Assembly: GCA_027483535.1 (NCBI GenBank)
Contig: JAIXUN010000002.1
Span: 2,170,001 to 2,234,000 of the forward strand
Origin: a bacterium
GTDB lineage: Bacteria; Armatimonadota; Fimbriimonadia; Fimbriimonadales; Fimbriimonadaceae
Direction of reading: 5' to 3'
DNA: 64,000 bases
Shown here: piece after piece, positions 4,824 through 62,528 of the stretch
Layout of the letters: each line of letters starts with the position of its first letter
Position numbering within the stretch: the first letter of the stretch is position 1
Made by a program: the position numbers and the translations under genes
The notes under the pieces: generated by a model
Database searches by the model: none
What the model saw: only the letters and a program-made list of their open reading frames with translations
Told to the model about the DNA's origin: nothing

Positions 4824-4924
4824 AGTCTTTATCCGCAGAGATTGCGTCGGATCAAGCACTTAGCCATCCGGTCAATCTGATCATAATGTTCACCCGATTC
4901 TAACGACGTCGAACAACACAACAT

Positions 4925-5476: not shown

Positions 5477-5500
5477 TCTCTCAAATATTGCATAGCTTTT

Positions 5501-5998
5501 CTAATCACGAGGCCTCAAGACGGGTTTCTTTTCAAACAAGAGAGGATATGTTTTGTGAAGGTGCAAATAGAATGGATACCAAGTCTCGTCCGGGTTAGGC
5601 AAGCGCACCTTTGATTTATCAGCAAGACTTGCAAGGCCCGTCTCATCGATCCATACGATTCTCGATATTTCGAGGCTCTGCTCCGAAAACGACCCGATGT
5701 ACCAAACAATCTTCCCTTCGTGTTCGTACAGGTACCACCCACGGCGATTCTTCTTCATTCGAAGCTCGGCGTACAAAACAATCGCCGCACCAGCAGAGCA
5801 AGCAAGTGTGAACCTTTGCCATTGGTCAAGCCCGCTGGCTGCCTCGTAAAATACTGCTCCTACGAAGAGTGCCAGGATCGCTAAAGCAATTCTAAACCCA
5901 CGCCATAGCTCATTAGGATGAACTCTAATAAACGATTGAGGTTCAACTTCAGACTTTCCATCGGGAAAGTAGGTCTGCGAATAATATTCGTCTTTCAT
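5501..5998 (-). CDS. Hypothetical membrane protein, 165 residues
   Basis: A hydrophilic N-terminus is followed by two membrane segments near residues 35-53 and 62-79, then a soluble beta-rich domain (GWYLYEHEGKIVWYIG, KSKVRLPNPDETWYPF). The plan, a membrane hairpin plus a C-terminal domain, is the same as in the next gene (4925-5476), suggesting distant paralogues or partners. No catalytic motif is visible. It is a member of the minus-strand queue beside the RHS remnants. Confidence 0.55.
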   Translation of the reverse strand: MKDEYYSQTYFPDGKSEVEPQSFIRVHPNELWRGFRIALAILALFVGAVFYEAASGLDQWQRFTLACSAGAAIVLYAELRMKKNRRGWYLYEHEGKIVWYIGSFSEQSLEISRIVWIDETGLASLADKSKVRLPNPDETWYPFYLHLHKTYPLLFEKKPVLRPRD

Positions 5999-6074
5999 TA
6001 CAAATTGATCTTGGTTGTTCGCCTGACATCAGAGCCAATCATCCTGTAAGTCTTTACTGGCACGCTCTCTTCCA

Positions 6075-6437
6075 TCAACGATCATCCTCACAAGGTAGGT
6101 AATCGATCCCATCCGTAAACTCGCTTTGAAGGGCTCTAGGGTTTTCTTCGAAAAGGAACACCTCGCTTTGCTCTTTGCCGTCAGGGCGCAGCACCAATCG
6201 TGAACCGTCTCTGGACCAAGTGCCTTGTTCACGCGCCCCGCGCTTCTCGTATCGACCGTTCGCATTCACTTTAAGAACCCACTTGCCCAACTCTGTTGGG
6301 GGAGCATAGCCACTGCTCTTCCAGCACCCAACAACAGGATCGGTCCTTCCACCCAGCGAGGACACGATCAAAACAGAGGCAACAAGGATCAAAGCCGCAA
6401 GGAGCCAAAGATGATTTCTCGAGCGGGTCGTCGTCAT
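6075..6437 (-). CDS. Membrane-anchored or secreted 120-residue protein
   Basis: A short Arg-rich N-terminus and one hydrophobic segment (residues 9-28) act as signal or anchor. A small domain follows with the look of lipocalin-like or META-like stress domains (VVGCWKSSG, GRYEKRGAREQGTWS, GSRLVLRPDG). Its ATG overlaps the stop of the upstream gene in an ATGA, so the two are translationally coupled. The Trp-bearing GTW repeat pattern suggests ligand or surface binding, but no family can be named with certainty. Confidence 0.55.
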   Translation of the reverse strand: MTTTRSRNHLWLLAALILVASVLIVSSLGGRTDPVVGCWKSSGYAPPTELGKWVLKVNANGRYEKRGAREQGTWSRDGSRLVLRPDGKEQSEVFLFEENPRALQSEFTDGIDYLPCEDDR

Positions 6438-7018
6438 GGAGAAGGAGCGCCCACTTTGGAAGGTTGACCCAGTTTCGGAGGTTTCGCCCTCATCTCCGAC
6501 TCGAGCCTGTTGGCTTGCGCACGAAGCCTCACGATTCGAGGACTGATGAGGTCGACCTTTTTACAAAAGTTGTAGGTATCGTTGGCTTGCAGCCAAAACC
6601 GGAAACCAAGGGTCGGCAACTGATCGTCGATGTTAAGCAACAGAGAACCAATCTTCTTCCTCTGGTCCAGGTTAAAGGTCGGCTTTAGCCTTCGAATAAT
6701 CTCCCCACACGAAGTCCAAAACATTGGATCAGAATCAGCCTTAAGGACCTCGCACCAATCCTCGCCGGAGAAAGCCTTTCGGGCGGTTAACTCTCTGATC
6801 CAGTCGGTCTTGACCCACCACACTTCGGTTCCGTGCGACCCTTCTAAGACGAGGGATCTCAGCTCATCCACCGAGATTTTCTTGAGGTCGTAACCGTCGA
6901 TGCCGTTGATCACATGCAGGCTGTTTCTTAACCGCTGATATTCGCTCTCTTCCGGGTTGGTCTGGCCGGCAACACTTAGTCCGACCAACGCTACAATCAC
7001 AACCTTTCGAATGTCCAT
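6434..7018 (-). CDS. Secreted hypothetical protein, 194 residues
   Basis: N-terminal signal peptide (MDIRKVVIVALVGLSVAGQ), with cleavage likely after VAG. The mature protein is helical and charged, contains several Trp and Cys residues (WWVKTDW, WTSCGE) and ends in a Pro-rich tail. No recognised domain. It overlaps the next gene by 4 bases (ATGA), which marks a two-gene unit exported to the envelope. Function unknown. Confidence 0.6.
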   Translation of the reverse strand: MDIRKVVIVALVGLSVAGQTNPEESEYQRLRNSLHVINGIDGYDLKKISVDELRSLVLEGSHGTEVWWVKTDWIRELTARKAFSGEDWCEVLKADSDPMFWTSCGEIIRRLKPTFNLDQRKKIGSLLLNIDDQLPTLGFRFWLQANDTYNFCKKVDLISPRIVRLRAQANRLESEMRAKPPKLGQPSKVGAPSP

Positions 7019-7368
7019 ATCATCCTCTTACAACCCACTGCCGAAAAATGATCGTTTGTTACATCTCAACTCACTGTCTCGGCCGTATCACCACGAGAAG
7101 AAGGAATACTTCCAACGAGAAAGGACCGAAATCTAGAGCAGGGCGCAATGCATCAACATAGTACTGCAGATGTCCCGATCATGACGACTGTTTTTTGAAT
7201 GCGCACAACCTGAGTTACTCAGTGCACCTTCGAGTTTGGGCATACGCTCAGTTAAAAGCCTCTCATAAAGGTAGGAGCGACGGGGATTCTTCACAATCCG
7301 GACCGTTTGAACACCAATTTTGTAGTTTTCTCCTCATCACAGTAGAATCGTCTCCGCCAATAGGCTGC
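7019..7368. other. Gap without a recognisable gene
   Basis: About 350 bases between two minus-strand genes. Only short overlapping frames without ribosome binding sites are present. No clear terminator hairpin, promoter or repeat was recognised. The far side presumably holds the promoter of the 6434-7018 gene. Confidence 0.4.
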
Positions 7369-7884
7369 TCACCCTTCGCGAAGATTCTCAGGCATTGCGT
7401 TCTTCTCCTTTTGCAAACGTCGCTGGACCCGTGTTCTCTCAACCCGCGATCGAATTTCGTCCACCGCAACACCTCTTCCTTCCATGAACTCAATCACTTG
7501 GTCAACCGCTTTCTGCTCGGCTTCCGAGAACTGATGTCGGTTCCTCTCGAACTGCCCGATAAGAAGAATGGTTGCTAAGGAACTTTTGGGATATCGAAGA
7601 ACGGCTAGCAATACCGCAGGCAAATAGAAGAGAAAAATCGGTCCATTCAAGTAGTTCACGATGTCATACTTCTTGACGAAATACTCGGAGGTCCATGCGA
7701 AGACATTCCTTCGAGCACAAAGTTTCTTAATATTCCGCACGTCAGTTTCAAAACTGTCCGAGAACGTATACAGGGGCTGCCCCTCTGGCCAAGGGCGCAG
7801 GGCAATATTTGAAATCGAACGCAAAGCTTCGATGTATCGCAAATCAGAAGATTTAGATTCTTTTTGCATTCTGTTTCGGCCCAC
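7369..7884 (-). CDS. Hypothetical protein resembling the DUF6714 style
   Basis: Soluble protein of up to 171 residues. Its middle (LNGPIFLFYLPAVLLAVL) and C-terminal part (FSEAEQKAVDQVIEFME) recall the DUF6714 family, in which a 'YLPAFLLASL' helix is followed by 'LTPEQRxAVxxFLEF'. That match is made from memory of the pattern, not from a search. Either the GTG at 7884 or the ATG at 7869 could be the start. Proteins of this kind are often found near polymorphic toxins, which fits the neighbourhood. Confidence 0.5.
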   Translation of the reverse strand: MGRNRMQKESKSSDLRYIEALRSISNIALRPWPEGQPLYTFSDSFETDVRNIKKLCARRNVFAWTSEYFVKKYDIVNYLNGPIFLFYLPAVLLAVLRYPKSSLATILLIGQFERNRHQFSEAEQKAVDQVIEFMEGRGVAVDEIRSRVERTRVQRRLQKEKNAMPENLREG

Positions 7885-7970
7885 TCTTCCGTTCGAAACT
7901 GTCGTCGTTCATCGTTATCGTACATCGCATTAGCGGCTCGTACAGAGGCAGCACAGAGAATCTTTTCGTG

Positions 7971-8498
7971 CTAATTCTTCCCTGCAACGATCCTTTGAAT
8001 TACCAATTGCCATTCACTCACCAGCCCGAGTTTCTGGCGCTCACTAACCTCCAGAAGCAAGCTACCTTTCTCGAAAGGCGGCCCATCCGATTCCTGGGAG
8101 ATCGATACAACCGTGTCACCGGATTGCCACTCCTGCCAGGATGATGAACGGTACCTTTCGGAAAACCCCAATTTCTTCAGCTCCGACTCAAGGCTAGAAC
8201 TTTCCAATAAGAGCGCGCCTGCCTTCTTAAAAACTCGTGTTCGCCAGATCGACCGATCCAAGCTCGAATCGTTGCGTGAAATCTGTACGGCAATGCGTTG
8301 CCAAGACGATGCAAATCGGGGATCGGCTGATAGGGGCAGCCAAGATGATACAGCGAGCACAAACCCAATCGCCAAAAAGGCGATTCCGAGCGCAAGCCAG
8401 AGTTTGATCTTCACACCAAAAACCGGTCGCATCGCGTCACGTCGGTCAAGCTCTGCTCTGCTGATAAAGCCGGTCCAAGCGTTTCGCATCATCCCCAC
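7971..8498 (-). CDS. Single-pass membrane protein, 175 residues
   Basis: One strong transmembrane segment near residues 32-54 (LWLALGIAFLAIGFVLAV) separates a short basic cytoplasmic N-terminus from an exposed domain of about 115 residues rich in Ser and Glu. No motif is recognised. The first codons are uncertain, since several start codons cluster at the 5' end. It is part of the same-strand queue of small envelope genes. Confidence 0.5.
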   Translation of the reverse strand: MGMMRNAWTGFISRAELDRRDAMRPVFGVKIKLWLALGIAFLAIGFVLAVSSWLPLSADPRFASSWQRIAVQISRNDSSLDRSIWRTRVFKKAGALLLESSSLESELKKLGFSERYRSSSWQEWQSGDTVVSISQESDGPPFEKGSLLLEVSERQKLGLVSEWQLVIQRIVAGKN

Positions 8499-8622
8499 CT
8501 CAAATGATGAGCCCTGACAGGCCTACACACCAAGCCGCATCTTCGGGAAGTTCTTCCACCCTCTCTACCATCCACATCCACCCCAGCGGGGTTCAGACTC
8601 GACCCGCGTCGCGATCGAGTTA

Positions 8623-9048
8623 CTACTCATCCCAGAATTCTGCGTCACCGCAGCTTCCTCCGCGGGAACCGTGTTCTTTAAGCGTCTGCTCAAAGAACCG
8701 ACGTAGGTGCTTCTCTTTTGGCGGGAATCCGGCCAGAGTCACGAGTTCTGGCTTTCGGGTCCAGACGAACATCGAGGAAGTCAGCGTCCGGGTAACGATT
8801 CGTTTTCCGAAATCCAGGATAGCTGTGAATTCGCTATCGTCACAAAAGATAAGATCGGATTCCCAAAGTGTTTCGTTGTAAAGACGGTCTTCTCGAGTGC
8901 CCGGGAATCCAGTCTCTTCGACGTGCTTCACCTCTCCCGGAAAAGCTCGATTCAGCACGTCTAGGTCCGTTTGATTAAGAAAGCCAACGACGACCAACAA
9001 GGGCTTCTTTGCCGGTGAATCACTCTTGGTCTGATCTTGTTCAAACAT
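8623..9048 (-). CDS. Hypothetical protein, about 141 residues
   Basis: Soluble alpha/beta protein. The N-terminus reads KPLLVVVGFLNQTDLDVLNRAF, like the first beta-strand and helix of a Rossmann-like fold; IFCDD and SSMFVWTRKPELVTLAG follow. The frame is open back to a GTG at 9198, but that GTG lies inside the flgM terminator hairpin, so the ATG at 9048 is preferred. A GGGAGGAG sits about 20 bases upstream, further than usual. Function unknown. Confidence 0.45.
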   Translation of the reverse strand: MFEQDQTKSDSPAKKPLLVVVGFLNQTDLDVLNRAFPGEVKHVEETGFPGTREDRLYNETLWESDLIFCDDSEFTAILDFGKRIVTRTLTSSMFVWTRKPELVTLAGFPPKEKHLRRFFEQTLKEHGSRGGSCGDAEFWDE

Positions 9049-9182
9049 AGGCTTGGAAAAGACACTCCTCCCAGTACCAATGATAACGCTAGACCGCTCC
9101 GTGCTCGCTACGAATTGATAACTGGGACTCACGAAGCCAAGCGCCCAACAAAAAGGAGTCAAACCAGTCGCAATAAACAAAA

Positions 9183-9215
9183 AAGGGTCCGACTCCACTC
9201 TGGAGTCGGACCCTT
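9183..9215 (-). terminator. Intrinsic terminator of the flgM-like gene
   Basis: Perfect 15-bp stem with a 3-base loop (AAGGGTCCGACTCCA, loop, and its complement), followed on the minus strand by TTTTTTGTTTATTG. It lies 54 bases after the flgM-like stop and isolates that gene from the small-gene queue downstream. Confidence 0.9.
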
Positions 9216-9268
9216 GGTCATTGTGTGCCGAAAGAGGTTTCAGCCGAGTTCAGCCAGGGCTTGAAGCC

Positions 9269-9559
9269 TTAGCGCGCTCGATCTGCAATCGCGCGGCGGA
9301 TCATTCCGTCCACGATCTCTTCGGCGGAGGGTGCGTAGGTGCCGGCGGCGATGCGCGCCTTCAAAGCGGCGATCATCTCTTCTCGATCCGGCATGTTGAC
9401 AACGTCACTTGTGACGCTTTTCACAAGATCCTGTTCGCGAAGCTGCGCTTCCGCATCCAACTCCGCCGAAAGGGCGTTCGTCGGCACGGTGGAGGTCTCT
9501 GCGTTCACTGCCGCAAACCCACCCAACAACTTCTTTACTTCTTCGTCTGAAATCCTCAT
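9269..9559 (-). CDS. flgM: FlgM-like anti-sigma-28 factor
   Basis: A 96-residue protein that would hold back a FliA-type sigma factor until the flagellar hook is finished. The C-terminal third (REEMIAALKARIAAGTYAPSA, then EEIVDGMIRRAI) matches the conserved FlgM pattern 'V..LK..I..G.Y.v....IA..ml'. The N-terminal half is low in hydrophobics and probably disordered, as FlgM is. GGAG lies 8 bases before the ATG. A candidate cyclic-di-GMP riboswitch precedes it and a strong terminator follows, so it is a single-gene unit. A matching FliA/WhiG-type sigma gene lies at 25.5-26.3 kb. Confidence 0.8.
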   Translation of the reverse strand: MRISDEEVKKLLGGFAAVNAETSTVPTNALSAELDAEAQLREQDLVKSVTSDVVNMPDREEMIAALKARIAAGTYAPSAEEIVDGMIRRAIADRAR

Positions 9560-9581
9560 GGCTTACTCCTACTCGGTTCCA

Positions 9582-9701
9582 GACAGGTAACCCAGCCATC
9601 TCATCGCCCCTTGGGAACCCAACTCTCGAAAGGTTCTTCGCCGGCTTTGACATCTGTGGCTTTGCGCGATCGGGGTCGCCCCCGTCTTGCCGTTTTCTGT
9701 C
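9582..9701 (-). promoter_or_regulatory. Candidate cyclic-di-GMP-I (GEMM) riboswitch
   Basis: On the minus strand the flgM leader reads GACAG (9701-9697) ... CTGTC (9586-9582), which form a closing helix. Inside are GGCAAGAC, a CGGGG-GCGA-CCCCG hairpin with a GNRA loop, CGCAAAGCCAC, an AGCCA/TGGCT helix and finally GGGTTACC. The order and wording follow the GEMM-I consensus (GGCAAACC, GNRA hairpin, GACGCAAAGCC, GGGUUACC). It ends about 22 bases before the ATG, so control of translation start is plausible. Not confirmed by a covariance model. Confidence 0.65.
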
Positions 9702-10044
9702 ATGAGCTCTTCGCTCGATATTCTTTTCGGTCGAACCGTGCGAACTCTTTAGACCAAACCTAGAACATTTTGTGAGGTTTTTTCAGTCTCAGGTTCAAAG
9801 CGTCTCGAAACTCCAGCATACCGACGGGGACATTTCTTCGCAAGGGGTTCGCCCATCCCCAAACAAGCCACCCCAAAATTTAACGGGATCACCGATTTTA
9901 AGCGGGGCTATTTCATTCAGGAGCGGCAATGGATAGACTTCCGAACAGACAACGTCCAAACGAGTTCTTCGACGCACCCGGTTCCGGCCAATCAAGCAAA
10001 CGCGTCGACCGATGAAGACGAAGACCTCAAAGACGAGGAGTTTC
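9702..10044. other. Intergenic region between divergent flgM and hmgA
   Basis: About 340 bases without a convincing gene. It must hold the promoter of the flgM leader (minus) and of the hmgA-esterase pair (plus). No clear sigma70 hexamer pair or terminator was recognised by eye. An upstream in-frame ATG at 10012 exists but lacks a ribosome binding site. Confidence 0.4.
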
Positions 10045-11205
10045 ATGCGCTATCACCGATTAGGATCCCTTCCCAAAAAGCATCACATCCAATTCCGAAA
10101 GCCCGATGGCGGTCTTTACACGGAGCAGTTGTTCAGCACGCGAGGATTCAGCGGACCCATGTCCACGCTGTATCACATCAATCAGCCCACCGAGGTGTCT
10201 GGCTGGGAAGATCGAGGATCGGTCAAAGTCACCTATCTAGAAGACGAGCCCCTTCGACATCGCCACCTCAAGAGTCGGCCCATGGAACCTAAGGGAGACG
10301 CGATCTCGGGCCGAATCCCGCTCATGGGCAATTCGGATATGGAGTGGCATCAGGTGGTGGTTGCAGAGCCGATGAAGTCGTTCTATAAGAACGCTGACGG
10401 CGACGAGATTCTGTTCGTGCACGATGGATCAGGAGTGTTGCACTCCATGTTCGGGCGCATCACTTTTAAGCCGGGCGACTATCTGGTCATCCCCCGAGGC
10501 GTGATCTACCGGCTAGATTTCGATGCTCACCCGGTGCGCATGATCGCACTGGTCAGCTACGGTCCGGTGGAAATTCCCCGCCGATATCGCAACGAATACG
10601 GCCAAATCTTGGAACACGCTCCCTACAAAGAGCGAGACTTCCGGGCTCCTGAAGCGCTCGACACCTTCGACGAAGGGGGCGATTACGAAGTGGTCGTTCG
10701 GGCTCGCAATCGCCTCACCGCGTACAAGTTCCCTTACCACCCGTTCGATGTCGTCGGATGGGACGGTTACGTCTTCCCTTACGCGTTCAGTATTCACGAT
10801 TTTCAACCCATTACGGGCAAGCTGCACATGCCTCCGCCCATTCACCAAACGTTCCACGCGGCGGGGTTTGTGGTGTGCTCGTTCTGCCCCCGAATGTTGG
10901 ACTATCACCCAGAGGCGGTTGCCATTCCGTACGCGCACAGCAACGTGGATTCGGACGAGGTGCTGTACTACTGCAACGATAAGTTCGGATCCAGAAAGGG
11001 CATCGAAGAAGGATCCATCACGCTGCACCCGCTCGGCATTCCGCATGGACCTCAACCCGGCGCGGTCGAAGCGGCCCTGGGTCACACCAAAACCGAAGAG
11101 CTTGCGGTGATGGTAGATACCTTCCACCCGCTCAAGCTCACCGCCAACGCCTTAGAACTCGAAGACCCGGCCTATTGGCAAAGCTGGAAAACCAAACGAT
11201 CATGA
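10045..11205 (+). CDS. hmgA: Homogentisate 1,2-dioxygenase, short bacterial type
   Basis: Opens the ring of homogentisate to maleylacetoacetate in tyrosine and phenylalanine breakdown, using ferrous iron and oxygen in the cytoplasm. The 386-residue protein starts MRYHRLGSLP, as in the short bacterial HmgA group, with GAGGAG 5 bases before the ATG; an in-frame ATG at 10012 has no such site. Two cupin halves are visible: DEILFVHDGSGVLHS with PGDYLVIPRG, and YAHSNVDSDEVLYY with HPLGIPHGP, which supplies the His, Glu and His expected to bind iron. It overlaps the esterase gene by 4 bases (ATGA). No other gene of the pathway is in the window. Confidence 0.8.
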   Translation: MRYHRLGSLPKKHHIQFRKPDGGLYTEQLFSTRGFSGPMSTLYHINQPTEVSGWEDRGSVKVTYLEDEPLRHRHLKSRPMEPKGDAISGRIPLMGNSDMEWHQVVVAEPMKSFYKNADGDEILFVHDGSGVLHSMFGRITFKPGDYLVIPRGVIYRLDFDAHPVRMIALVSYGPVEIPRRYRNEYGQILEHAPYKERDFRAPEALDTFDEGGDYEVVVRARNRLTAYKFPYHPFDVVGWDGYVFPYAFSIHDFQPITGKLHMPPPIHQTFHAAGFVVCSFCPRMLDYHPEAVAIPYAHSNVDSDEVLYYCNDKFGSRKGIEEGSITLHPLGIPHGPQPGAVEAALGHTKTEELAVMVDTFHPLKLTANALELEDPAYWQSWKTKRS

Positions 11206-47043: not shown

Positions 47044-49548
47044 TTAGTTGGTGACCAGTTCCATTTCGGACTTGGTTTCACCCTCGCCCGGCTCTTTCTT
47101 TCGGAAGACGATCTTCTCGTCTTCTTCCAGATCGGCGACGATGGCGTCGCCCGCCGTAAAGGTTCCCAGCAACAACTCTTCGCTGAGCGGATCTTCGATG
47201 TATCGCTGAACCGCACGTCGCAGAGGTCGGGCACCCAGGTTCGGGTCGTAACCCTTCTCCACCAGGAGCGCCTTGACTGCCTCGCTGAGGTCGATCGTGA
47301 TCCCCGCCGCCTTTGCCTGTTCGTTCACACGGGTGAGGTACAGGTCGGCAATGGTGAGAATCTCTTCCTTCTTCAGGTGTTGGAACACGATGGTCTCGTC
47401 CACACGGTTCAAGAATTCCGGTCGGAACAGCTTTCGCATCTCCTCCATCATCTTGTTCTTCATCGATTCGTAAACCTTCGGATCCGAGTGATCGGGTCGA
47501 GTGTCTCGGAAGCCGAGACCCTTGTCCAATTCGATCGGTCGAACACCGACGTTTGACGTCATGATGATGATCGTGTTTCGGAAGTCCACGGTTCGACCCT
47601 GACTGTCGGTCAGTTGACCGTCTTCCAGAACCTGCAGGAGCAAGTTGAACACTTCCGGGTGAGCCTTCTCGATCTCATCGAGCAGGACCACACAGTAAGG
47701 GTTTCGCCGCACCGCTTCGGTGAGCTGACCGCCCTCATCGTATCCAACGTATCCTGGAGGGGCACCGACCAATCGGGAGATCGAGAACCGTTCCATGTAC
47801 TCGGACATGTCGATTCGGACCATGTTGGAATCCTTATCGTACAAGTAGCTCGCAAGAGCCTTTGCCAACTCGGTTTTTCCAACGCCCGTCGGACCGAGGA
47901 AGATGAAACTTCCCATGGGTCGCTTCGGATCCTTCAAGCCGCTTCTCGAACGTCGAATGGCGCGCGATACTGCCTTGACGGCATCTTCTTGACCGATGAT
48001 GCGCTTGTGAAGATCGTCTTCCATCCGGAGGAGCTTTTGGCTCTCCGTTTCCACGAGCTTCATCACCGGAATACCGGTCCAAGATTGGACAATCTGAGCG
48101 ATTTCGGTTTCAGAAACTACCGGTTCAATCTTTTCCCGGCTGTTCCACTCTTCTTCGCGATCGCGAACGCTCTGTCCAAGCTCCTCAAGCTCCTTCTCCA
48201 TCTGCTCCAGACGGTCCGGCTCTTGATTCCGCTTTCGAAGATGCTCGACATCGGTCTGCATCTTGTTCAACTTCACTCGATCCGCACGCACGTCTGCAGG
48301 AGGAAGGCTTTGTTGAAGCCTCACTCGCGACGCCGCTTCATCGATCAGGTCGATAGCCTTGTCTGGCAATGACCGGTCGCTGATGTATCGGTTGGAAAGT
48401 TGAACTGCCGAAAGGATGGCCTCATCGGTGATCTCGACGTGGTGGTGCGCTTCATATCTTTCGCGCAGACCCTTCATGATCTCGATAGCCTCATCCTCAC
48501 TCGGCTCTTTGACCTTTACCGCTTGGAATCGTCGTTCCAGAGCCGCATCCTTTTCGATGTACTTTCGGAACTCGTCTTGCGTGGTGGCACCAATGCACTG
48601 CAGTTCGCCACGAGCAAGAGCGGGCTTCATGATGTTGGAAGCGTCGATGGCGCCCTCGGCGGCACCGGCTCCAACCAACGTGTGAAGCTCATCGATGAAG
48701 AGAATGACTTGGCCATCCGCCTTGCGGACTTCCTCCATCACCTTCTTCATGCGCTCTTCGAATTCGCCGCGGTATTTCGTTCCCGCAACCAATCCGGCAA
48801 GATCCAAAGCGATTAGTCGCTTGTCTTTCAGCAGATCCGGAATGTCTCCGGAGACGATGCGCAGGGCCATGCCCTCGGCAATGGCGGTTTTGCCCACGCC
48901 CGGATCGCCGATGAGACACGGGTTATTCTTCGTGCGTCGGCAAAGGATCTGCATCACGCGCTCGATCTCAGACTGCCGACCCACAACGGGATCGAGCTTT
49001 CCTTCTCGAGCAAGTTCGGTAAGGTCACGTCCGAACTCATCAAGCGTTTGAGTCTTGGCATTCGAAGTTTCCTTCTGAGATCGGCTGCTGCCGGAAGGAC
49101 TCTTCGTCTGCGTTTCATTGTCTTGGAGAGCCATTACCTCTCGGCGTGCCTTTTCTAGTTCGACACCGAGCTTGGCAAGGACCCGACCCGCCAGCCCATC
49201 GCCTTCGCGAATAAGACCGAGCAGGAGGTGCTCCGTTCCAATGTAGTTGTTGTTAAGATTCCGCGCCTCATCGTAAGCCAAGTCGATGACTCGCTTGGCA
49301 CGAGGCGTCAACGTCATGTCCTGATTGGGCCGAGCGTCCCCACGAGGAAGCTGCTTTTCAACTTCTCCTCGAATGCGAGTGAGACTGACGCCCAACTTTT
49401 CGAGCACACGAGCGGCGACGCTGTCGGACTCTCGTACGAGACCCAGAAGGAGATGCTCCGTGGAGACGTATCCCTCACCGAACTTCTGAGCTTCTTCCTG
49501 CGCGTAGAAAACAACTTTCCGCGCTCTTTCTGTAAAGCGTTGCCACAT
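47044..49548 (-). CDS. clpC: ClpC-type AAA+ unfoldase
   Basis: 834-residue ring ATPase that unfolds proteins for ClpP or rescues aggregates. Two Clp N-domains come first (residues 1-145: [17 protein letters not shown] and [17 protein letters not shown]). The first ATPase has GDPGVGKTA, with [15 protein letters not shown]; a short middle coiled coil ([20 protein letters not shown]) follows; the second ATPase has GPTGVGKTE and ends with the conserved C-terminal domain. The middle domain is short, as in ClpC and unlike ClpB. No ctsR or mcsAB gene is adjacent. GC-rich terminator downstream. Confidence 0.9.
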
Positions 49549-54754: not shown

Positions 54755-54953
54755 CCCTTCAGCCGGAATCATCTCGAAAGCGTTCGCTCACAGCGCTGTA
54801 CCGACTTCGTTAGCACTGCGCCGTGGAGCCAGTGATAAAGAGCATTTGCACGTTTAGAGGATGTTCTCGCAGGTTTACGGCACTTTGTGTATCAGAGGGT
54901 GATCGCATCGAATCCTGACACTGACGCCCAAAACTGTGGAGGCGTACACCATC

Positions 54954-55958
54954 ATGGAAAACAAGTGCATTCTAGCCATCGCTCTTCTTGGAGCCCTCTC
55001 CCCTGTCGCCAAAGCCCAATCCTACACGGCGTCGGAGGTCAGTCCTAGCGGATTTACCCTCGCGATCGCCGGTGGAACCGTGTTCGGCTACTCCGGGGCC
55101 CCGGCTCACGCAGCCCGGTGGGATTCTCTAGGTCACACCGATCTTCACCCGGCGGGCTATGCCTCGTCCTACGTGCGCGGTGCAAGGGGGAGCTACGCGG
55201 TTGGAAACGCAGACCGGACACCAATGGTATGGCGAGGAAATTCGGCCACTCCCCTTCCCGTGCCGTTTGCCTTCTACAACGGACTTGCGTACGACACCGA
55301 CGGAACCAGCGCAGTCGGCGTGGCCTATGAAGGTGATCCAGAACGTACGGTAGGCGCTGGACACGCACTGCTCTGGAACCTCAACTCTGGCTCCGTTGAG
55401 GATCTTGGAAAAAACGTTACCGTTTCCGCAGTCGGTGGGGGAGTTCAGGTCGGTTATCAACTCGGATCAAAGGGCACTACCGCCGCAATGTGGAGGGGGA
55501 CGGCCAAGTCCGTTGTTAACCTTCACGTTCGATCTCAAAATGTATCGGTAGCATCAGGAACGGACGGATTACGCCAGGTGGGATATGTCGGGCTCGACGT
55601 AAGGGTTCGAAACGAAGCGAAGCCTCGAGACATTCGGTTCTATAGCGCCGTGGTTTGGACAGGCAGTGCAGCGTCAGTTGAGTTTCTCCCGAGTCCCTAC
55701 CGACACTCCTTCGCGACTACTGTTCTAGGAGACACCGTCGTCGGATATGGCAACACGACGAACGCCATCGGTAACCCGATTCACAGCCATGCGATCGCGT
55801 GGGTGGGCACTTCCAACAGTCCAGTGGATCTACACGCCTTGCTTCCAGCAAATATGCTCACAAGCCGGGCAACGGATGTTGATGAAAATGGAAACATCAC
55901 GGGTTACGGAGTGGATACGGCTGGTGTAGCCCACTCCTTCATTTGGAAGCGGAATTAA
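54954..55958 (+). CDS. Secreted HAF-repeat protein
   Basis: 334 residues. A signal peptide (ENKCILAIALLGALSPVAKA) is followed by propeller repeats like those of the preceding HAF gene but without the Ig-like domains (AVGNADRTPMVWRG, GYQLGSKGTTAAMWRGT, RATDVDENGNITGYG). It is probably a beta-propeller on the cell surface or secreted. The ATG at 54954 has GGAGG 10 bases before it; a GTG at 54936 overlaps that site and is rejected. It lies inside the segment bounded by the 45-bp repeats. Confidence 0.8.
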   Translation: MENKCILAIALLGALSPVAKAQSYTASEVSPSGFTLAIAGGTVFGYSGAPAHAARWDSLGHTDLHPAGYASSYVRGARGSYAVGNADRTPMVWRGNSATPLPVPFAFYNGLAYDTDGTSAVGVAYEGDPERTVGAGHALLWNLNSGSVEDLGKNVTVSAVGGGVQVGYQLGSKGTTAAMWRGTAKSVVNLHVRSQNVSVASGTDGLRQVGYVGLDVRVRNEAKPRDIRFYSAVVWTGSAASVEFLPSPYRHSFATTVLGDTVVGYGNTTNAIGNPIHSHAIAWVGTSNSPVDLHALLPANMLTSRATDVDENGNITGYGVDTAGVAHSFIWKRN

Positions 55959-56054: not shown

Positions 56055-57260
56055 TTACCGCCGTTTGCCAAGCCAGGCCCCGCTCACGAACGAGGAAAAG
56101 TTAAGCCCTCTTCCCAGCATGCGACGAAATCCCGGGTTGTAACCATCGATATCAAAACCCGAGCTGTTCAGCCCCGCCTCGATCGTTGAGGGAGAAAAGA
56201 CTCCCGTCCTGCTGCGAAAGAACTCGGCAACGGCCGCAGATACCCATGGTGCGGCGAAGGAAGTGCCAGACCAACTAGCTGCAGCCCCGTTCCAATCAGT
56301 ACTGACAATTTCGACCGAAGGTGCACTCACAACCACGCTTCGATCATAAGAGCTAAACGGAGCCTTGACCCAACCGGCGCCTACACCGGCTACTCCGATC
56401 GTGCCACCGTAGGCGGCCGGATAAAGTTCTCCTTCAGCAGCGTCATTCCCAGCAGCCGCAACGACCAGCAGTTTTCTTGCTGAGCACCACTCGAGAACGT
56501 CTCCCAAGGCTGGAACACGATCGGAGGCTCCGAGACTAACATTGGCGACAGCCGCTCCGGAGGTCACGGCAAAGGTAAGCCCCTTGATAAGGGTCCATGA
56601 AGTTGCGTTCCCATCGCTGTCCGCGACTCGGCATATGATAAATCGGCTCTGCGGACTCACTTGATCGATGATGCCCGCGACCATGGAACCGTGACCCGTA
56701 CGGGCATCGTAGACTCCATCATTGTTCGAGTCGTGCCCCCGGGGCATGTCGAAGGGCGGTAAACCGGGCTCGACCGCGTTGATCCAGCCGTCTACTTTGG
56801 CAAGTAAACCCGGTGCATTGTTTGAGATCCCTGTATCGAGGATGGCCACCCGCACACGTCTCCCTGGGGTGGAGACTAGCCGACCTGCCCAACCCATCTG
56901 CCGAAGGTAGACCGCGTTATAGCCAAGGCTGGTCACCCGATCTCCGACCGCTGGAAGAGTTGAGCCCTTTTGAGTATTGACCTGTTTCGTCTTTTCAGGG
57001 GTTTGAAAACCCTTGTTGTCTTCCGCCCAAACCACTCGTGGATCTGCGTTAAGAAGATCTTGCAGAAGTTGTGTGGATACATCCGATCCGGTCTCGAACA
57101 ATGCAAACGGGCCGCCGACGGTTTGGTCTTGAAGAGTCAGACCGTAAGCGGTAGCAATTTCCTGCGCAGCCACGCCATCAACTAGGCGGCACACCAACTG
57201 CCCGGCGTAGGAGTGCAGCGAGAATGCGGCAAAAAGGGCAGCGACGGCAAGTTTTTTCAT
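56055..57260 (-). CDS. Secreted S8 subtilisin-like protease
   Basis: 401 residues, the last gene of the ECF-CHAT operon. A signal peptide (KKLAVAALFAAFSLHSYAGQ) and a short propeptide of about 75 residues precede the catalytic domain. The triad is complete: Asp142 in VAILDTGIS, His190 in GHGSMVAG, Ser334 in SGTSFAAP, with the oxyanion Asn272 in AAAGND. The ATG at 57260 overlaps the CHAT stop in ATGA; a longer frame starts inside the CHAT gene and is rejected. It would act outside the cytoplasm, while the CHAT protease is cytoplasmic. Confidence 0.9.
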   Translation of the reverse strand: MKKLAVAALFAAFSLHSYAGQLVCRLVDGVAAQEIATAYGLTLQDQTVGGPFALFETGSDVSTQLLQDLLNADPRVVWAEDNKGFQTPEKTKQVNTQKGSTLPAVGDRVTSLGYNAVYLRQMGWAGRLVSTPGRRVRVAILDTGISNNAPGLLAKVDGWINAVEPGLPPFDMPRGHDSNNDGVYDARTGHGSMVAGIIDQVSPQSRFIICRVADSDGNATSWTLIKGLTFAVTSGAAVANVSLGASDRVPALGDVLEWCSARKLLVVAAAGNDAAEGELYPAAYGGTIGVAGVGAGWVKAPFSSYDRSVVVSAPSVEIVSTDWNGAAASWSGTSFAAPWVSAAVAEFFRSRTGVFSPSTIEAGLNSSGFDIDGYNPGFRRMLGRGLNFSSFVSGAWLGKRR

Positions 57261-59815
57261 TCCGATTTTCCGGCATAGGCGGATACTCCGCCCCAATAGT
57301 AAGGATGTGCTTTCCAATCCCGTGTGATACATCGTGCTTCAAAAAGTGCGCCAAGAAGACCTTGCCCACTGACAAAGCGCTGATAAAAGCAAGAAAAAAG
57401 CAATTTCGCCGCTTCGTCATCCAAGGGCCATAAGCTTCCGATCGCCATTCCAGCTCCCTTTGCTAGAAAGGCTCGGACCAGCCCATCTGGCTCCATGCGT
57501 TGCCCCGAACCCACGGAACCCGTTTCGCAAGCCGAAAGGGTCGCAAGTTCCACTGAACAAGGAGCGGCTGCGATTTCATAAGCGAACACTTTTCCATCGG
57601 GAAAAGAGAAGGATGACATTGCCGAACAGCCTTCCTCGTGAACGGCATGCCCTACAACATGGATCGCCGTGATTTCACCAGAAAGGGATTTTCTAGCCTC
57701 CGCTGCCGAGGTCACTACATCGCAGCCTCCTAAGAGTTCGCGGATGATGGCAACTTCTCCCTCAGCATTGGGAAGGTCGGGCGCGGGGCCGTACCAGATA
57801 AGGTTTCGACCCGTCATAGAAGGTTCTCGACCTTTCAATGCGGGGTGGAAACTTACACGGCATTCTCCCTCCACACCAAGGCAAGCTCTTAGGGCCGTCC
57901 AAGGCAACTGCCAGGTGAGTTTATCTGGACAAACGAGCGGCGATTCTCGCACCAGAAGAGATTGAAAAGGCTCAGCAATCTCTCGCAGTGACTTTAGAGT
58001 TTCTTCTGAGGCAGCATTCTTGTCGGCCAGTGGCGCAAGCAGATCAAAGCGGAGCCACTGAAGCTTTTCTTTGAGTTGCTTGGAAGTTAGGCCTGTCCTG
58101 CTAAAACTATCTCCCTCGAGGCAGAGCGTATCCCCGGTTGTTTCCAGAATAAGTGGTGCCGAAGAGTGTCCCAAATGCGTCCCGGCAGATGCCGATTTGA
58201 TGTTCAAAAGAATCGACGAGGCCTCCTCGTGTATTTCCCGTAACGAAGATGCGCGCGTAACTTTCCGCGAGCCTTCCGAAATGTGCCGAGACTCTTCGAG
58301 AGGGATCGAGCTTCGCAACTCTTCTAGGCGCTCTCGTATCTCGGGTTCGAGGGAGGTACGAGCAACGATCTGGTCCAGCAGTGTGACGCTCCGGAGATCA
58401 ACAAGTGCCTGAGAGAGCTCTTGAATTCGCATTTGAGTCGGATGTTCGAGCAGCCAGTCAAAGTATTCCTGGAGCGCGCCGGATTTATCCGCGAGGTAGT
58501 TTTGGCGAGCAACGATACTGGACAGACTCAACCTCTTGGTTTGGATAGACCGAAACATTTTTCGGTACCAAACGCCCGGATTTTTTGAATGGCTCGATAT
58601 TAAATGGAGTGCCTTCCATTCGAGATCGACATAGCCTCCAGATCGCGCCAGCTTTAAAGCGGCAAGGGCCCTTTCGCGACTTGCTCGCGCAAGGGACAAA
58701 TGAATGGAGAGAGCATGGAAGGTCCCATAGCTCGTGGCATCATCCAGAATCGACTTGAGATCCCCGTCTCCGCTCAGACTCGCCGACTTTGCTAGAGCTT
58801 GAGCAGTCCACCCTCTTGCCCCCGACTGTTGGAAGAAATCTGCGGCCCGAGCGTAAGAACGGGACGCTTCTGGCAACGAGCCCATCGCCTCTTGAGCTTC
58901 TGCGATCCCAAATGCTAAGTGACCACGGTGAACGGGCAACTTGACGCCTTTCTCTGCTAAAACGTACGCACTTATAGCGTTCTGCCAAAGGTTGAGTTTG
59001 AGAAAAGAGTCTCCTAGATATTCGCGAGCACGAGATTGATCGACTTTAGAAAGGTTGCCGGAATCAAGAAGGCTCAAGAGGATTCCATGCGCAGTTTCCG
59101 GTTGCTGAGTGAGGTTGTGGGCGAGCGCTTGATTGATTTTTGCGAGATCGGCAAGGTAGTCGGCCCCAAGCGCTTTGGCGCCGGCTACAACCTCGGTAGC
59201 AGCCGAAAGCGCTGCTCTTGGATTGCCAGAGAACAACTGTGCAGAAGAGAGCCCGAGCTTTGCGGATTGCGCTTCAATCTCAAATCCACCCTCTAGTAAA
59301 GGGTCAACCACCTTTTTGAAGACCTGTATCGCCTCTTGAAAACGATCTTGGTACAAAAACGCGTTCGCGAGATTGAACATTGCTCGAGCTGCCAGCCCTG
59401 GGTGTCCAAGCCGTGCGAGGTTTCGATTGAGCCTCTTTGCAAGTGATTCTGCCTCCCCTATTTCGCCTGATCGGGCGAGCGAATCAATGGCTCCAACGGC
59501 AAATGATTGGCGATCGACAGGGTTCTTTGCTCGCCGCGCCGCTTCCAAAAATGCCTTCGAACTAGCCGACCAGTTTCCGCAGAGCCGCTCGTAGATGCCA
59601 CCCGCACGGTAAGCCCATTCGGAGTCTTCTGCAAGATCCACCCACTGCTCCCAGTCTGCACCCAAGCGAACAGCTCGATTAGCCGATGATCCGTGGTACT
59701 TGAGCATCCGCTCAAAAAATGCTTTACCCGACCCATTAGGCGCGGAAGAAACGTTCCGAGAGGCGCCTTGCTCCAACTGAGATACAAACTCAGACGCCGT
59801 CAACTTCAACCTCAA
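57257..59815 (-). CDS. TPR-CHAT caspase-like protease
   Basis: 852 residues, no signal peptide. The first 500 residues are helical repeats of TPR type (AGGIYERLCGNWSASSKAFL, AMFNLANAFLYQDRFQEAIQ, AYVLAEKGVKLP). The C-terminal CHAT domain (about 600-852) holds the caspase-like dyad His723 in HVVGHAVH and Cys763 in LSACETGSV, plus GMAIGSLWPLDDEAAKLLF. The architecture matches TPR-CHAT proteases such as Csx29 of type III-E CRISPR. The start overlaps the anti-sigma gene by 26 bases and the end overlaps the subtilisin gene by 4. The likely role is a signal-gated cytoplasmic protease. The substrate is unknown; the anti-sigma factor is the first candidate. Confidence 0.85.
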   Translation of the reverse strand: MRLKLTASEFVSQLEQGASRNVSSAPNGSGKAFFERMLKYHGSSANRAVRLGADWEQWVDLAEDSEWAYRAGGIYERLCGNWSASSKAFLEAARRAKNPVDRQSFAVGAIDSLARSGEIGEAESLAKRLNRNLARLGHPGLAARAMFNLANAFLYQDRFQEAIQVFKKVVDPLLEGGFEIEAQSAKLGLSSAQLFSGNPRAALSAATEVVAGAKALGADYLADLAKINQALAHNLTQQPETAHGILLSLLDSGNLSKVDQSRAREYLGDSFLKLNLWQNAISAYVLAEKGVKLPVHRGHLAFGIAEAQEAMGSLPEASRSYARAADFFQQSGARGWTAQALAKSASLSGDGDLKSILDDATSYGTFHALSIHLSLARASRERALAALKLARSGGYVDLEWKALHLISSHSKNPGVWYRKMFRSIQTKRLSLSSIVARQNYLADKSGALQEYFDWLLEHPTQMRIQELSQALVDLRSVTLLDQIVARTSLEPEIRERLEELRSSIPLEESRHISEGSRKVTRASSLREIHEEASSILLNIKSASAGTHLGHSSAPLILETTGDTLCLEGDSFSRTGLTSKQLKEKLQWLRFDLLAPLADKNAASEETLKSLREIAEPFQSLLVRESPLVCPDKLTWQLPWTALRACLGVEGECRVSFHPALKGREPSMTGRNLIWYGPAPDLPNAEGEVAIIRELLGGCDVVTSAAEARKSLSGEITAIHVVGHAVHEEGCSAMSSFSFPDGKVFAYEIAAAPCSVELATLSACETGSVGSGQRMEPDGLVRAFLAKGAGMAIGSLWPLDDEAAKLLFSCFYQRFVSGQGLLGALFEARCITRDWKAHPYYWGGVSAYAGKSE

Positions 59816-60329
59816 TGGGACTAGGAATTAGAAACTCCGCACCATTGGTCTCGAGGACGAGTTCTGAAACTGCTATATCTGATATTGGGACAAGAACCCT
59901 TCCACGATCGTCGGTTTCAAACCTTTCTCCTGCATGGAAGATGGTTCCTTGACGACCGTTCAAGGAAAGGAAAACGTCCCAACCCGTAGTAGTTGGCGAA
60001 TACATTGCCCGAACCTGCAAGTCACCCTGGCCAAAAAGCACTTGAGCAGGAACACGTTCCGTGCGAGCCCCAAGCGCGCTCAATCTCGGAGAAACCAGCT
60101 TCAACCTGCTTCTATTAGGTTGAGCAATGGCGATTGCGGATTCGACAAGCGACTGAGGAGGCTGCTCGAAAGGGTAACTGGAGGCTTCCTTCATGATCAG
60201 GATTTGATCATAGGCAACCCTGCACCGTTCGCAAGAAACTAGATGGTCCCGAGTTTCCTTTGTCGCTCGCCCGTCGGCGAGTTCCACCAACAAGTCCCAC
60301 TGCTTCTTTACGTGCCCGTCCATTCCCAA
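59790..60329 (-). CDS. Soluble zinc-binding anti-sigma factor
   Basis: 179 residues. The zinc anti-sigma motif is complete: His29-x3-Cys33-x2-Cys36 (DHLVSCERC), in a helical N-terminal domain that clasps region 2/4 of the partner ECF sigma. Unlike most such proteins it has no transmembrane helix. The C-terminal 90 residues are beta-rich (DVFLSLNGRQGTIFHAGERF, SELVLETNGAEFLIPSPIEV), like a carboxypeptidase-regulatory or sensor domain. It follows the sigma gene by 35 bases and overlaps the CHAT gene. A Met at residue 3 is an alternative start. Confidence 0.85.
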   Translation of the reverse strand: MGMDGHVKKQWDLLVELADGRATKETRDHLVSCERCRVAYDQILIMKEASSYPFEQPPQSLVESAIAIAQPNRSRLKLVSPRLSALGARTERVPAQVLFGQGDLQVRAMYSPTTTGWDVFLSLNGRQGTIFHAGERFETDDRGRVLVPISDIAVSELVLETNGAEFLIPSPIEVEVDGV

Positions 60330-60364
60330 TTACACAGAGTCGTCTTGTTGAAATAAAGATACAT

Positions 60365-60934
60365 CTACGGAAGAAAAATGCTTTGATCCAGAAGGCTTCG
60401 GAGCTTGAACAGACAGCGAGCCCTTGTCGGCCCCAGGGACCCTATCGGTATTGCCAGTTGAGAGGCAATTGCTTCGTAGCTCCAACCATCTTGGAGATAC
60501 AGCAAACTAAGCAACTTGGCGCACTTTCCCCCGAGCCTCTGGAGCCCCTCACGGAGGTAATGAGCCTGACTTGCCGCAATCGCCTCTTTCTCCGCGAGGG
60601 CGTCCTCCGAGAGCATGAGCTCTTCCACGGTCCCTTCAAAATCATCCACCGAAGCATGGTGCTTCGAAGTTCGGATGATCCTTCTTGCTTGGTTCGCCGC
60701 AGTCACCGCCAACCACTTGGGAAGGGCCTGGCCGGAGTTGATCCGATCAAGATTCTCGTAGAGCGCCTTGAACGTAGCCTGGAACACATCCGCACAGTCG
60801 TCTTGGTTAAGGCGGTGTCGCCTGGCAACAGAATAGACCAGCGGACTGAACCGTTCGACAAGTTGCGCCCATGCCCGTTGGTCTTTGTTTGCGCACTTTG
60901 CGAGCAATCGGCTCAAGTCCTCGTTGCCTACCAC
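60365..60934 (-). CDS. ECF sigma factor
   Basis: 189 residues. Sigma region 2 (LVERFSPLVYSVARRHRL, DDCADVFQATFKALYENLDR) and region 4 (LYLQDGWSYEAIASQLAIPI, GPTRARCLFKLRSLL) are complete; regions 1.1 and 3 are missing, as in ECF sigmas. The ending IGSLGPTRARCL belongs to a distinctive ECF wording. The GTG start at 60934 has AGGTG 5 bases upstream, inside a hairpin. First gene of a four-gene operon with its anti-sigma, a TPR-CHAT protease and a subtilisin. It probably drives its own operon or genes elsewhere; no target promoter is identified. Confidence 0.9.
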   Translation of the reverse strand: MVGNEDLSRLLAKCANKDQRAWAQLVERFSPLVYSVARRHRLNQDDCADVFQATFKALYENLDRINSGQALPKWLAVTAANQARRIIRTSKHHASVDDFEGTVEELMLSEDALAEKEAIAASQAHYLREGLQRLGGKCAKLLSLLYLQDGWSYEAIASQLAIPIGSLGPTRARCLFKLRSLLDQSIFLP

Positions 60935-61338: not shown

Positions 61339-62085
61339 ATGAAACACTCTCCTCTCACCCTCACCGCCATAGCCTTTGGTGGAATCTTCGTTCTAGCCAC
61401 CGCCGCAATCGCTCAACGCGAAAGCGCGCTGGCTCCTGCCAAACCCTCGGTATCGGTTGCCCTTGCCAATCTGGAGCCAGGGAATCAATGGCATTACGAA
61501 TACTCCTGGCCGAACGGCAAAACCCACGAGTTCGTGCTGCACACGTCAAAGAAGATCGATACCCCTACGGGAACCGTCTTTGAACTGAAGAATTTCAGCA
61601 ACACGCTGAAGGGTCAGCTCATCATCAGCTACGAGTACTTGGAGGCTCGAAATGCCGGGATCTTCGAGGCATCCAACGCCACCTTCAACAACACGAAACC
61701 CGGGTTCAAACTCTCCACCAAGGGAGCCATGCTGCCGAACGAACTGAGCCCCGGTACAACCTGGCGCTACAACTCGCTGGATGGGAGTGGTATGGACACA
61801 GGCAACGCAAGCGCCAGAACGGCGTCTTCCTTTGTGGGCAAGGTCCTCCCGTCCAAGGTTGTAAACACTCCGCTGGGAAAAAAGCAGGCAACGGTTATTC
61901 AGGTGTTCGAAAAGGTCCAATGGATGGAAACCACTAAGCGCACTTACTACGTGCCGGGTTTGGGCAAGGTCCGAGAGGAGCTCTTCGATGCAAAGGGGAA
62001 TCTCCTGCAGAAGCTCGAGCTGAAGAAGTTCACCAAGGGCGCGAAAGAGATCATCGCTCCGTTGACCGTTGACTCGGGCGGCTAA
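61339..62085 (+). CDS. Secreted beta-rich hypothetical protein
   Basis: 248 residues with a signal peptide (to about AIAQ). The mature part has paired strands (GNQWHYEYSWPNGKTHEFVL, GQLIISYEYLEARNAGIF) and the motif KRTYYVPGLGKVREELFD, which recalls DUF3108/TapB-like periplasmic proteins. No catalytic residues are visible. It is preceded by a 400-base gap with no other gene and overlaps the convergent MerR gene by 4 bases. Confidence 0.65.
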   Translation: MKHSPLTLTAIAFGGIFVLATAAIAQRESALAPAKPSVSVALANLEPGNQWHYEYSWPNGKTHEFVLHTSKKIDTPTGTVFELKNFSNTLKGQLIISYEYLEARNAGIFEASNATFNNTKPGFKLSTKGAMLPNELSPGTTWRYNSLDGSGMDTGNASARTASSFVGKVLPSKVVNTPLGKKQATVIQVFEKVQWMETTKRTYYVPGLGKVREELFDAKGNLLQKLELKKFTKGAKEIIAPLTVDSGG

Positions 62086-62528
62086 TCCGCTTTAGAATTG
62101 GCGGCCGACCCCGTTATGGGGTCGGCCTTCAGCTTGGTCAAATGCGCATAAAGGTGCGGAGGAGCGTCACCGACTTCACCACTTTTTAACCAATCTAACT
62201 TTGCTTGAAGATATTTCTGGATAGTCTGTAACTCAGCAACCTTCTGTTCTATCTGCAACAGTTTCTCTCCGACTATCCTTTGCTTGAGTTCTTGGGTGAG
62301 TTCGCCAGCCTGATGCGCTTGAAGCCCAACCTGAATTTCGGCGAGGGTAAATCCGAGTGCTCGACCAACTTGAATCCCTTCGGCAATCTCCAAATCGTCT
62401 TTGGAATAGTAGCGATACCTGCTGGATTCATCGCGCTTCGGTTTAAGCAAGCCTTTCGACTCGTAAAACCGAATCGTATCGATAGACCATCCTGTAGTCG
62501 CCGAAAACTCACCGATCTTCATCCGCAT
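62082..62528 (-). CDS. MerR-family regulator
   Basis: 148 residues. The N-terminal winged helix (KIGEFSATTGWSIDTIRFYE ... SSRYRYYSKDDL) is clear MerR; a dimerising antiparallel coiled coil (EKLLQIEQKVAELQTIQKYL) follows. It has no Cys, so it is not a metal sensor of the ZntR/CueR kind. It more likely responds to a small organic molecule. It is divergent from the dehydrogenase gene and its ATG lies 2 bases from the -35 box of that gene's promoter. The last dozen residues are encoded by a hairpin (62103-62127). Confidence 0.85.
   Translation of the reverse strand: MRMKIGEFSATTGWSIDTIRFYESKGLLKPKRDESSRYRYYSKDDLEIAEGIQVGRALGFTLAEIQVGLQAHQAGELTQELKQRIVGEKLLQIEQKVAELQTIQKYLQAKLDWLKSGEVGDAPPHLYAHLTKLKADPITGSAANSKAD
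62103..62127 (+). terminator. Hairpin at the convergent gene ends
   Basis: Perfect 10-bp stem GGCCGACCCC/GGGGTCGGCC with loop GTTAT, 17 bases after the plus-strand stop and inside the MerR reading frame. Only TTC follows, so termination is likely weak or factor-dependent. Confidence 0.5.

Follow-up and report, generated by a model that had tools for sequence, protein, structure and literature searches.

Can a TPR-CHAT protease gate an ECF sigma factor without a CRISPR effector, and what would such a switch turn on? The question is raised by four minus-strand genes at positions 56,055-60,934 of the window (the whole 64,000-nucleotide stretch of DNA analysed here), which encode an ECF sigma factor, a soluble anti-sigma-like protein, a TPR-CHAT protein and a secreted subtilisin. 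In the protease arm of type III-E CRISPR, Csx29 cuts Csx30, the inhibitor of CASP-sigma (PMC10028731), and a first-pass annotation of the locus had suggested that it encodes a CRISPR-free relative of that arm, possibly serving defence.

Organisation of the locus and identity of its products

All four reading frames were found where the first-pass annotation had placed them, with the spacing that it had described. The ECF sigma gene (60,365-60,934, minus strand; 189 aa) is separated by a 35-base gap from the gene for the anti-sigma-like protein (59,790-60,329, minus strand; 179 aa), which overlaps the TPR-CHAT gene (57,257-59,815, minus strand; 852 aa) by 26 bases, provided that a TTG start is used. 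The TPR-CHAT gene in turn shares four bases (ATGA) with the gene for an S8 (subtilisin-like) protease (56,055-57,260, minus strand), whose start is the ATG at 57,260 and whose open reading frame (425 aa) extends upstream of this real start.

The sigma factor matched Sigma70_r2 in Pfam (1.9e-10) and sigma70-ECF in NCBIfam (2.3e-20 over residues 21-181), and has the ECF arrangement of sigma2 and sigma4 without sigma3, with the segment SLGPTRARC in region 4. Its best solved relative was SigW (8.9e-16), and it is 40-53% identical to its orthologues. The S8 protease matched Peptidase_S8 in Pfam (9.8e-27) and combines a signal peptide, called by reading the sequence, and a propeptide-like N-terminal region with the Asp/His/Ser triad D142/H190/S334, which is invariant in alignment A4; triad and secretion signal together identify it as an S8 subtilase.

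The CHAT protein matched the CHAT domain in Pfam (4.8e-25) along with TPR repeats, the TPR solenoid spanning residues ~30-485 and the CHAT domain residues ~550-850. Five residues (H719, H723, C763, W796 and D800) were invariant in the 36 members of alignment A6, and His723 and Cys763 constitute the dyad; this dyad, the S8 triad and the zinc motif of the anti-sigma-like protein were each read directly in the sequence, as they had been in the first pass. In the AF2 model (pLDDT 87.8, pTM 0.84), the solenoid is followed by a caspase-like domain. The best solved matches of this model were Csx29/TPR-CHAT of Craspase (8eey_B at 6.5e-16 in Foldseek; 8eey at Z 26.6 in VIA), separases, gingipain R and DdvA of Myxococcus xanthus, whose entries 8rot and 8rw5 were reached by both fold and profile searches. 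The protein thus has the TPR-CHAT fold with a His/Cys dyad that is a feature of the Csx29 arm, and the resemblance proposed earlier to the Csx29-Csx30-sigma module holds for the CHAT fold; for the inhibitor, profile and fold searches listed no Csx30 chain. The Csx29 segment aligned with the invariant D800 region is WKVRS. An argument for Arg specificity from an S1 pocket containing D800 was dropped, equivalence of this residue with the separase S1 acid not having been confirmed.

Elsewhere in the window, an 834-aa protein with two AAA-type regions (47,044-49,548, minus strand) matched the PDC-M37B/DolB and AAA models of PADLOC and is probably a Clp-like ATPase rather than a defence protein, while the mad1 match to a MerR-family regulator (62,082-62,528, minus strand) spans its HTH only.

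Conservation of the module across genomes

Named relatives put the window's genome close to Fimbriimonas, within the Armatimonadota. When 61 related genomes were searched with the protein, 14 full-length CHAT matches were recovered, the window's own among them; across 291 Armatimonadota genomes, a profile search found 58 with a CHAT match at E ≤ 1e-30. We read the neighbourhoods of 57 CHAT loci across the Armatimonadota, a set dominated by one family, with neighbours called from mechanical open reading frames and profile hits rather than from annotation. The order sigma-anti-CHAT-S8 on one strand was present in 40 of these loci, at CHAT identities of 19-43% to the window's protein, while the sigma gene was divergent in two further loci and four had the order sigma-CHAT-anti-S8 (type B), including a second locus of the window's own genome. 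Among the other 11, five are cut by a contig edge and three lack S8. The genes that flank the module are not conserved among the loci read, and since the order nevertheless holds in 40 of 57 diverged loci, the linkage goes beyond chance; the four-gene neighbourhood, which the first-pass annotation had left to be sought in other genomes, is therefore conserved in relatives. One locus (L042) has tandem S8 genes 3' of CHAT, at 4,599-5,780 and 5,994-7,214.

In the type B loci, which are paralogous to type A, the gene between CHAT and S8 encodes a protein truly related to the type A anti protein, so that all four parts have stayed together despite reordering. The window's genome has exactly two genes of each kind, CHAT and anti-family, with one such pair in each of two loci. 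The second module copy (L044; contig C4, 652,000-668,000) is diverged, occupies positions 5,955-10,982 of that locus and has a secreted beta-helix-like gene upstream in divergent orientation.

The four genes could simply form a conserved, co-regulated operon whose products act separately, the CHAT protein being mainly a TPR scaffold and the sigma factor being controlled in another way. The genus-level group L134, L142 and L144, which keeps sigma-anti-CHAT without an adjoining S8, is compatible with such independence, and offers a natural way to ask whether S8 is an output and nothing more. However, the anti and CHAT genes are almost never parted, even where the order has changed, and both the CHAT dyad and an arginine of the anti protein (Arg89) are invariant across phylum-level distances, and we consider separate action of the products very improbable.

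For other phyla, the sigma profile was run on the genomes behind distant CHAT matches. The acidobacterial locus L227 has the full sigma-anti-CHAT-S8 order; an Acidimicrobiales genome has sigma-anti on one contig and CHAT-S8 at the edge of another (L223, L064), which we infer to join; and Lentzea and Kutzneria have sigma genes with an anti-family open reading frame and/or CHAT or S8 nearby. The contig JADZEW010000021.1 (L056), titled Methanoregulaceae archaeon SJ84, carries the same locus as contig C21 of genome G030, a member of the window's bacterial family, and is probably a mislabelled bin.

The first-pass annotation had named the Csx29 arm as precedent for this set of parts. That precedent stands, but a closer one that it did not name is provided by the ECF54 sigma factors, found mainly in Actinobacteria, which have CHAT and subtilase neighbours and for which proteolytic control without an anti-sigma factor has been proposed (PMC8999054); the likeness is one of gene context, with CHAT and subtilase genes lying around that of an ECF sigma factor. 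Applied to the present module, that proposal, which was made from CHAT, subtilase and carboxypeptidase neighbours (PMC8999054), would have CHAT degrade or trim the sigma factor itself to keep the system off, with the small protein as an adaptor, and it is favoured by the occurrence in Actinobacteria of related sigma factors whose neighbours include CHAT and/or S8. Against it, the S8 protease has a signal peptide and so should not meet the sigma factor, and an anti-family open reading frame with the invariant Arg, which the proposal leaves out of account, adjoins the sigma gene in most loci, the actinobacterial ones included. Whereas ECF54 was described without an anti-sigma factor, no gene accompanies CHAT more constantly in the module than the anti-sigma-like one, and a related small open reading frame also lies beside the sigma genes of the actinobacterial relatives. 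Direct proteolysis of the sigma factor by CHAT seems to us improbable.

An anti-sigma-like protein with one invariant arginine

The first-pass annotation had described the second protein as a zinc anti-sigma factor without a membrane helix, and it is indeed soluble, with no such helix in its sequence or model. Its residues 5-70 matched the ASD of RsiW in a profile search (E 2.4e-4), and the AF2 model (pLDDT 90.4) comprises four helices (residues 5-18, 24-32, 34-50 and 59-69; ASD, residues 5-69), a flexible loop and a C-terminal beta domain. Helical bundle and RsiW match together mark it as a putative class I (ASD) anti-sigma protein, and searches against solved structures gave nothing better than E 0.085 in Foldseek or Z 6.5 in VIA. 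The H-x3-C-x2-C motif of the ZAS subclass is present as HLVSCERC (60,222-60,245, minus strand; read from the sequence) but is missing from several orthologues whose gene persists, and zinc binding is therefore not the conserved feature. Several members have a degenerate zinc motif and a partly degenerate ASD, and the proteins from Actinobacteria are short, so that not all of the family may bind a sigma factor.

What is conserved is Arg89 (codon at 60,063-60,065, minus strand), the sole invariant residue in 51 of 51 aligned anti proteins, an alignment in which identity between members is low and the next best columns reach 86%. It sits in the loop formed by residues 83-94, between the helical ASD and the beta domain, and the lowest-confidence stretch of the model (residues 81-90, mean pLDDT 60) lies in or beside this loop. 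The commonest context of the residue is [AG]-[AV]-R, and the same Arg is kept in the actinobacterial and acidobacterial members inspected, which were outside the set that defined it. An invariant residue in a flexible loop is as expected of a cleavage or docking site, and a structural role is less likely. The position fits cleavage by CHAT, and we regard Arg89 as the candidate cleavage site (P1) on the basis of the alignment and model. Cleavage after Arg is favoured because the structural matches of the CHAT protein include separase and gingipain R, which are Arg-specific clan-CD proteases; separase cuts after Arg. By analogy with Craspase, on the other hand, an invariant Arg is not needed and could be a docking residue, since Csx29 orthologues cut Csx30 at non-conserved sites and without a strict P1 requirement (PMC11106740).

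A docking role is central to a further explanation, in which the anti protein is a bound pseudosubstrate inhibitor of CHAT, with Arg89 in the active site, in the manner of securin; the CHAT substrate would lie elsewhere, and the sigma factor would be controlled by competition or by a zinc or redox change in the anti protein. The invariant loop Arg suits pseudosubstrate docking as well as it suits cleavage, the CHAT fold is near that of separase, itself held by securin, and, in the many members that have it, the zinc motif could respond to redox, which is a frequent property of soluble ZAS proteins (PMC7406223). However, the zinc motif has been lost repeatedly and Arg89 never, and the match of the helical ASD to RsiW makes sigma binding the simplest role of the anti protein. 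We judge pseudosubstrate inhibition to be rather unlikely.

A promoter-like motif and the predicted regulon

The sigma gene is accompanied by a divergent upstream gene for the same small secreted protein in 12 loci, and a DUF4382-type lipoprotein is encoded in or beside the operon in six. The upstream regions of these secreted neighbours share a bipartite promoter-like motif, TGTATYW-N17-CTCTT, whose two elements have a fixed 24-base offset; it was first seen by eye, and a PWM was then built from 15 secreted-gene promoter sites and applied elsewhere. The two best PWM matches in the window (18.8 and 18.1 bits; next 11.5) both lie in the module operon, and the exact pattern has two matches in the window, against a shuffle mean of 0.04. 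The 18.1-bit match, TGTATCT-N17-CTCTG (60,334-60,363, minus strand), is a predicted sigma-dependent promoter in the gap that separates the sigma gene from that of the anti protein, a position that is repeated in ~20 other loci. The 18.8-bit copy (59,757-59,786, minus strand) lies 4 bases past the anti-sigma stop and may be due to chance, as it falls within the 5' part of the CHAT frame and has no conserved counterpart in relatives.

At a threshold of ≥12 bits, the coding strand of the sigma-anti junction carried the motif in 24 of 52 loci (22 when two training junctions are subtracted), whereas the opposite strand and the sigma strand upstream of sigma each gave 0/52 (Fisher 7e-9). The remaining 28 loci have no junction site at this threshold and the type B loci lack the motif; some promoters used by the sigma factor may escape the strict pattern. 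In the 61 family genomes, the strict motif occurred ~15-16 times, seven of these in module loci, and is thus rare genome-wide and concentrated in module loci. Because the motif stands at the sigma-anti junction and never on the coding strand 5' of sigma, the sigma factor probably drives the anti-sigma, CHAT and S8 genes together with adjacent secreted genes, which agrees with the earlier prediction that its regulon includes the exported protease. We rejected autoregulation of the sigma gene, as 0/52 loci had a motif upstream on its strand, and with no copy of the module motif there the gene is probably transcribed from a separate (housekeeping) promoter. A TATA-like GTGATACACT near the sigma start proved to be the divergent TGTATCAC element read from the other strand, and a type B promoter, TGTTA-N19-CCCTT, seen by eye in three of four loci, was not established by a pattern scan.

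Genes that follow non-core motif matches mostly encode signal-peptide proteins, with three glycosyltransferases in addition, and the motif-bearing genes and recurrent non-core neighbours taken together are mostly those of secreted proteins, with lipoproteins and glycosyltransferases among them. Signal peptides were found in 6 of 12 non-training motif genes versus 24%, a marginal difference (p 0.045) from hand-entered counts. The third-ranked match in the window (11.5 bits; 54,888-54,917, plus strand) is a weaker copy 5' of a convergent neighbour, which encodes a secreted HAF-repeat-like protein (54,936-55,958, plus strand) and is a possible regulon member; its homologue in L126 has a 17.9-bit motif in front and lies beside the module there, and the homologue in L112 also adjoins its module. 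A seven-locus cluster of 'secreted propeller' neighbours was partly a single-linkage artefact, the true homologues being those of the window, L112 and L126 only. In L140, L143 and L147, the gene that diverges from sigma is glycosyltransferase-like and has the motif in front, a hint that the output in that lineage includes surface polysaccharide. Across whole genomes of the genus, the motif was not clearly more frequent than a reversed-pattern control, and we therefore claim no large regulon; in the window's own genome, the third exact match is apparently within a coding region and a search for the small secreted partner did not find it.

Secretion or defence

The predicted output, made up of anti-CHAT-S8 and a few secreted proteins, leads us to read the function as secretion or surface biology rather than defence, while keeping the mechanism suggested in the first pass. 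If infection activated CHAT, the module could be an anti-phage defence or death switch free of CRISPR; this reading would draw on the fold-level similarity of the CHAT protein to Csx29 and to DdvA, which is the anti-sigma factor belonging to a CBASS-CRISPR island (PMC12288465). However, the recurrent neighbours and motif-bearing genes encode secreted proteins, lipoproteins and glycosyltransferases rather than the content of a defence island, and the predicted regulon, which is small, contained no recognisable nuclease or other effector. Among the core proteins, PADLOC had no model for CHAT or the anti protein and matched S8 only as a generic subtilase/IetS and sigma only weakly as AAA-Csx3. 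The RAMP family (PF03787) was absent from the genome, with control genomes positive, and no Cas gene was recognised beside the operon, in line with the earlier statement that the module lacks Cas proteins. A role in defence is thus poorly matched by the surroundings of the module, and we give it a low probability.

A probable protease-gated sigma switch and its relatives

On balance, we think it probable that the module is a self-contained, protease-gated sigma switch, in which CHAT would cut the anti protein after Arg89 and the freed sigma factor would drive the production of secreted proteins. In the sequence of events that we infer, the helical N-terminal domain of the anti protein would hold the sigma factor until the TPR part of the CHAT protein sensed some cytoplasmic cue, whereupon the CHAT domain would cut the loop between the sigma-binding and beta domains and release the sigma factor. 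This would then recognise TGTATYW-N17-CTCTT in front of the anti-CHAT-S8 unit, whose expression would reset the switch and lead to export of the subtilisin, and would also fire the promoters of neighbouring genes for secreted or surface proteins.

Such a switch would share with Csx29-Csx30-CASP-sigma a TPR-CHAT dyad protease, an inhibitor protein of an ECF sigma factor and positive autoregulation of the locus. The CRISPR arm has Cas7-11 and an RNA guide, whereas no CRISPR effector was found here; its inhibitor is Csx30, cut at non-conserved sites, whereas the putative inhibitor of the module is a small protein with an RsiW-like ASD, no Csx30 match and an invariant Arg as the candidate site; and, unlike the CRISPR arm, the module has secreted proteins, including a subtilisin, as its predicted output. 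In Myxococcus xanthus, DdvS, which controls the CBASS-CRISPR island (PMC12288465), is likewise an ECF sigma factor under an anti-sigma factor with a TPR-CHAT-like fold, but DdvA is one transmembrane protein (ASD, helix and TPR-CHAT-like part), whereas the module has separate, soluble anti and CHAT proteins. RsiW-SigW and the RseA-type protease-gated pairs have an ASD-type anti-sigma factor in common with the module, whose sigma factor is closest to SigW among solved structures, but they depend on regulated intramembrane proteolysis, in contrast to the soluble anti protein and the CHAT protease encoded in one operon here. The separase-securin/cohesin system has a TPR-like solenoid with a clan-CD protease domain, as the module does, but is eukaryotic and acts on unrelated substrates.

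CHAT proteins are common in bacteria and few have a known substrate. Here there is a candidate substrate that can be named, with one candidate residue for cleavage in it, along with a promoter as readout and a small regulon suited to reporters, and the chain from protease to gene expression is therefore testable in vitro with few proteins. The anti-family genes beside actinobacterial sigma genes suggest that in ECF54-like systems described without an anti-sigma factor such a protein may have been overlooked. More broadly, and tentatively, these loci may represent a widespread, undescribed class of CHAT-gated ECF switches in at least three phyla, which would cut a soluble anti-sigma factor after an invariant Arg to turn on secreted proteins, and which could be the CRISPR-free kind from which the Csx29-Csx30-CASP-sigma arm was recruited. 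The module also supplies a possible background, outside CRISPR, to the protease arm of the type III-E systems.
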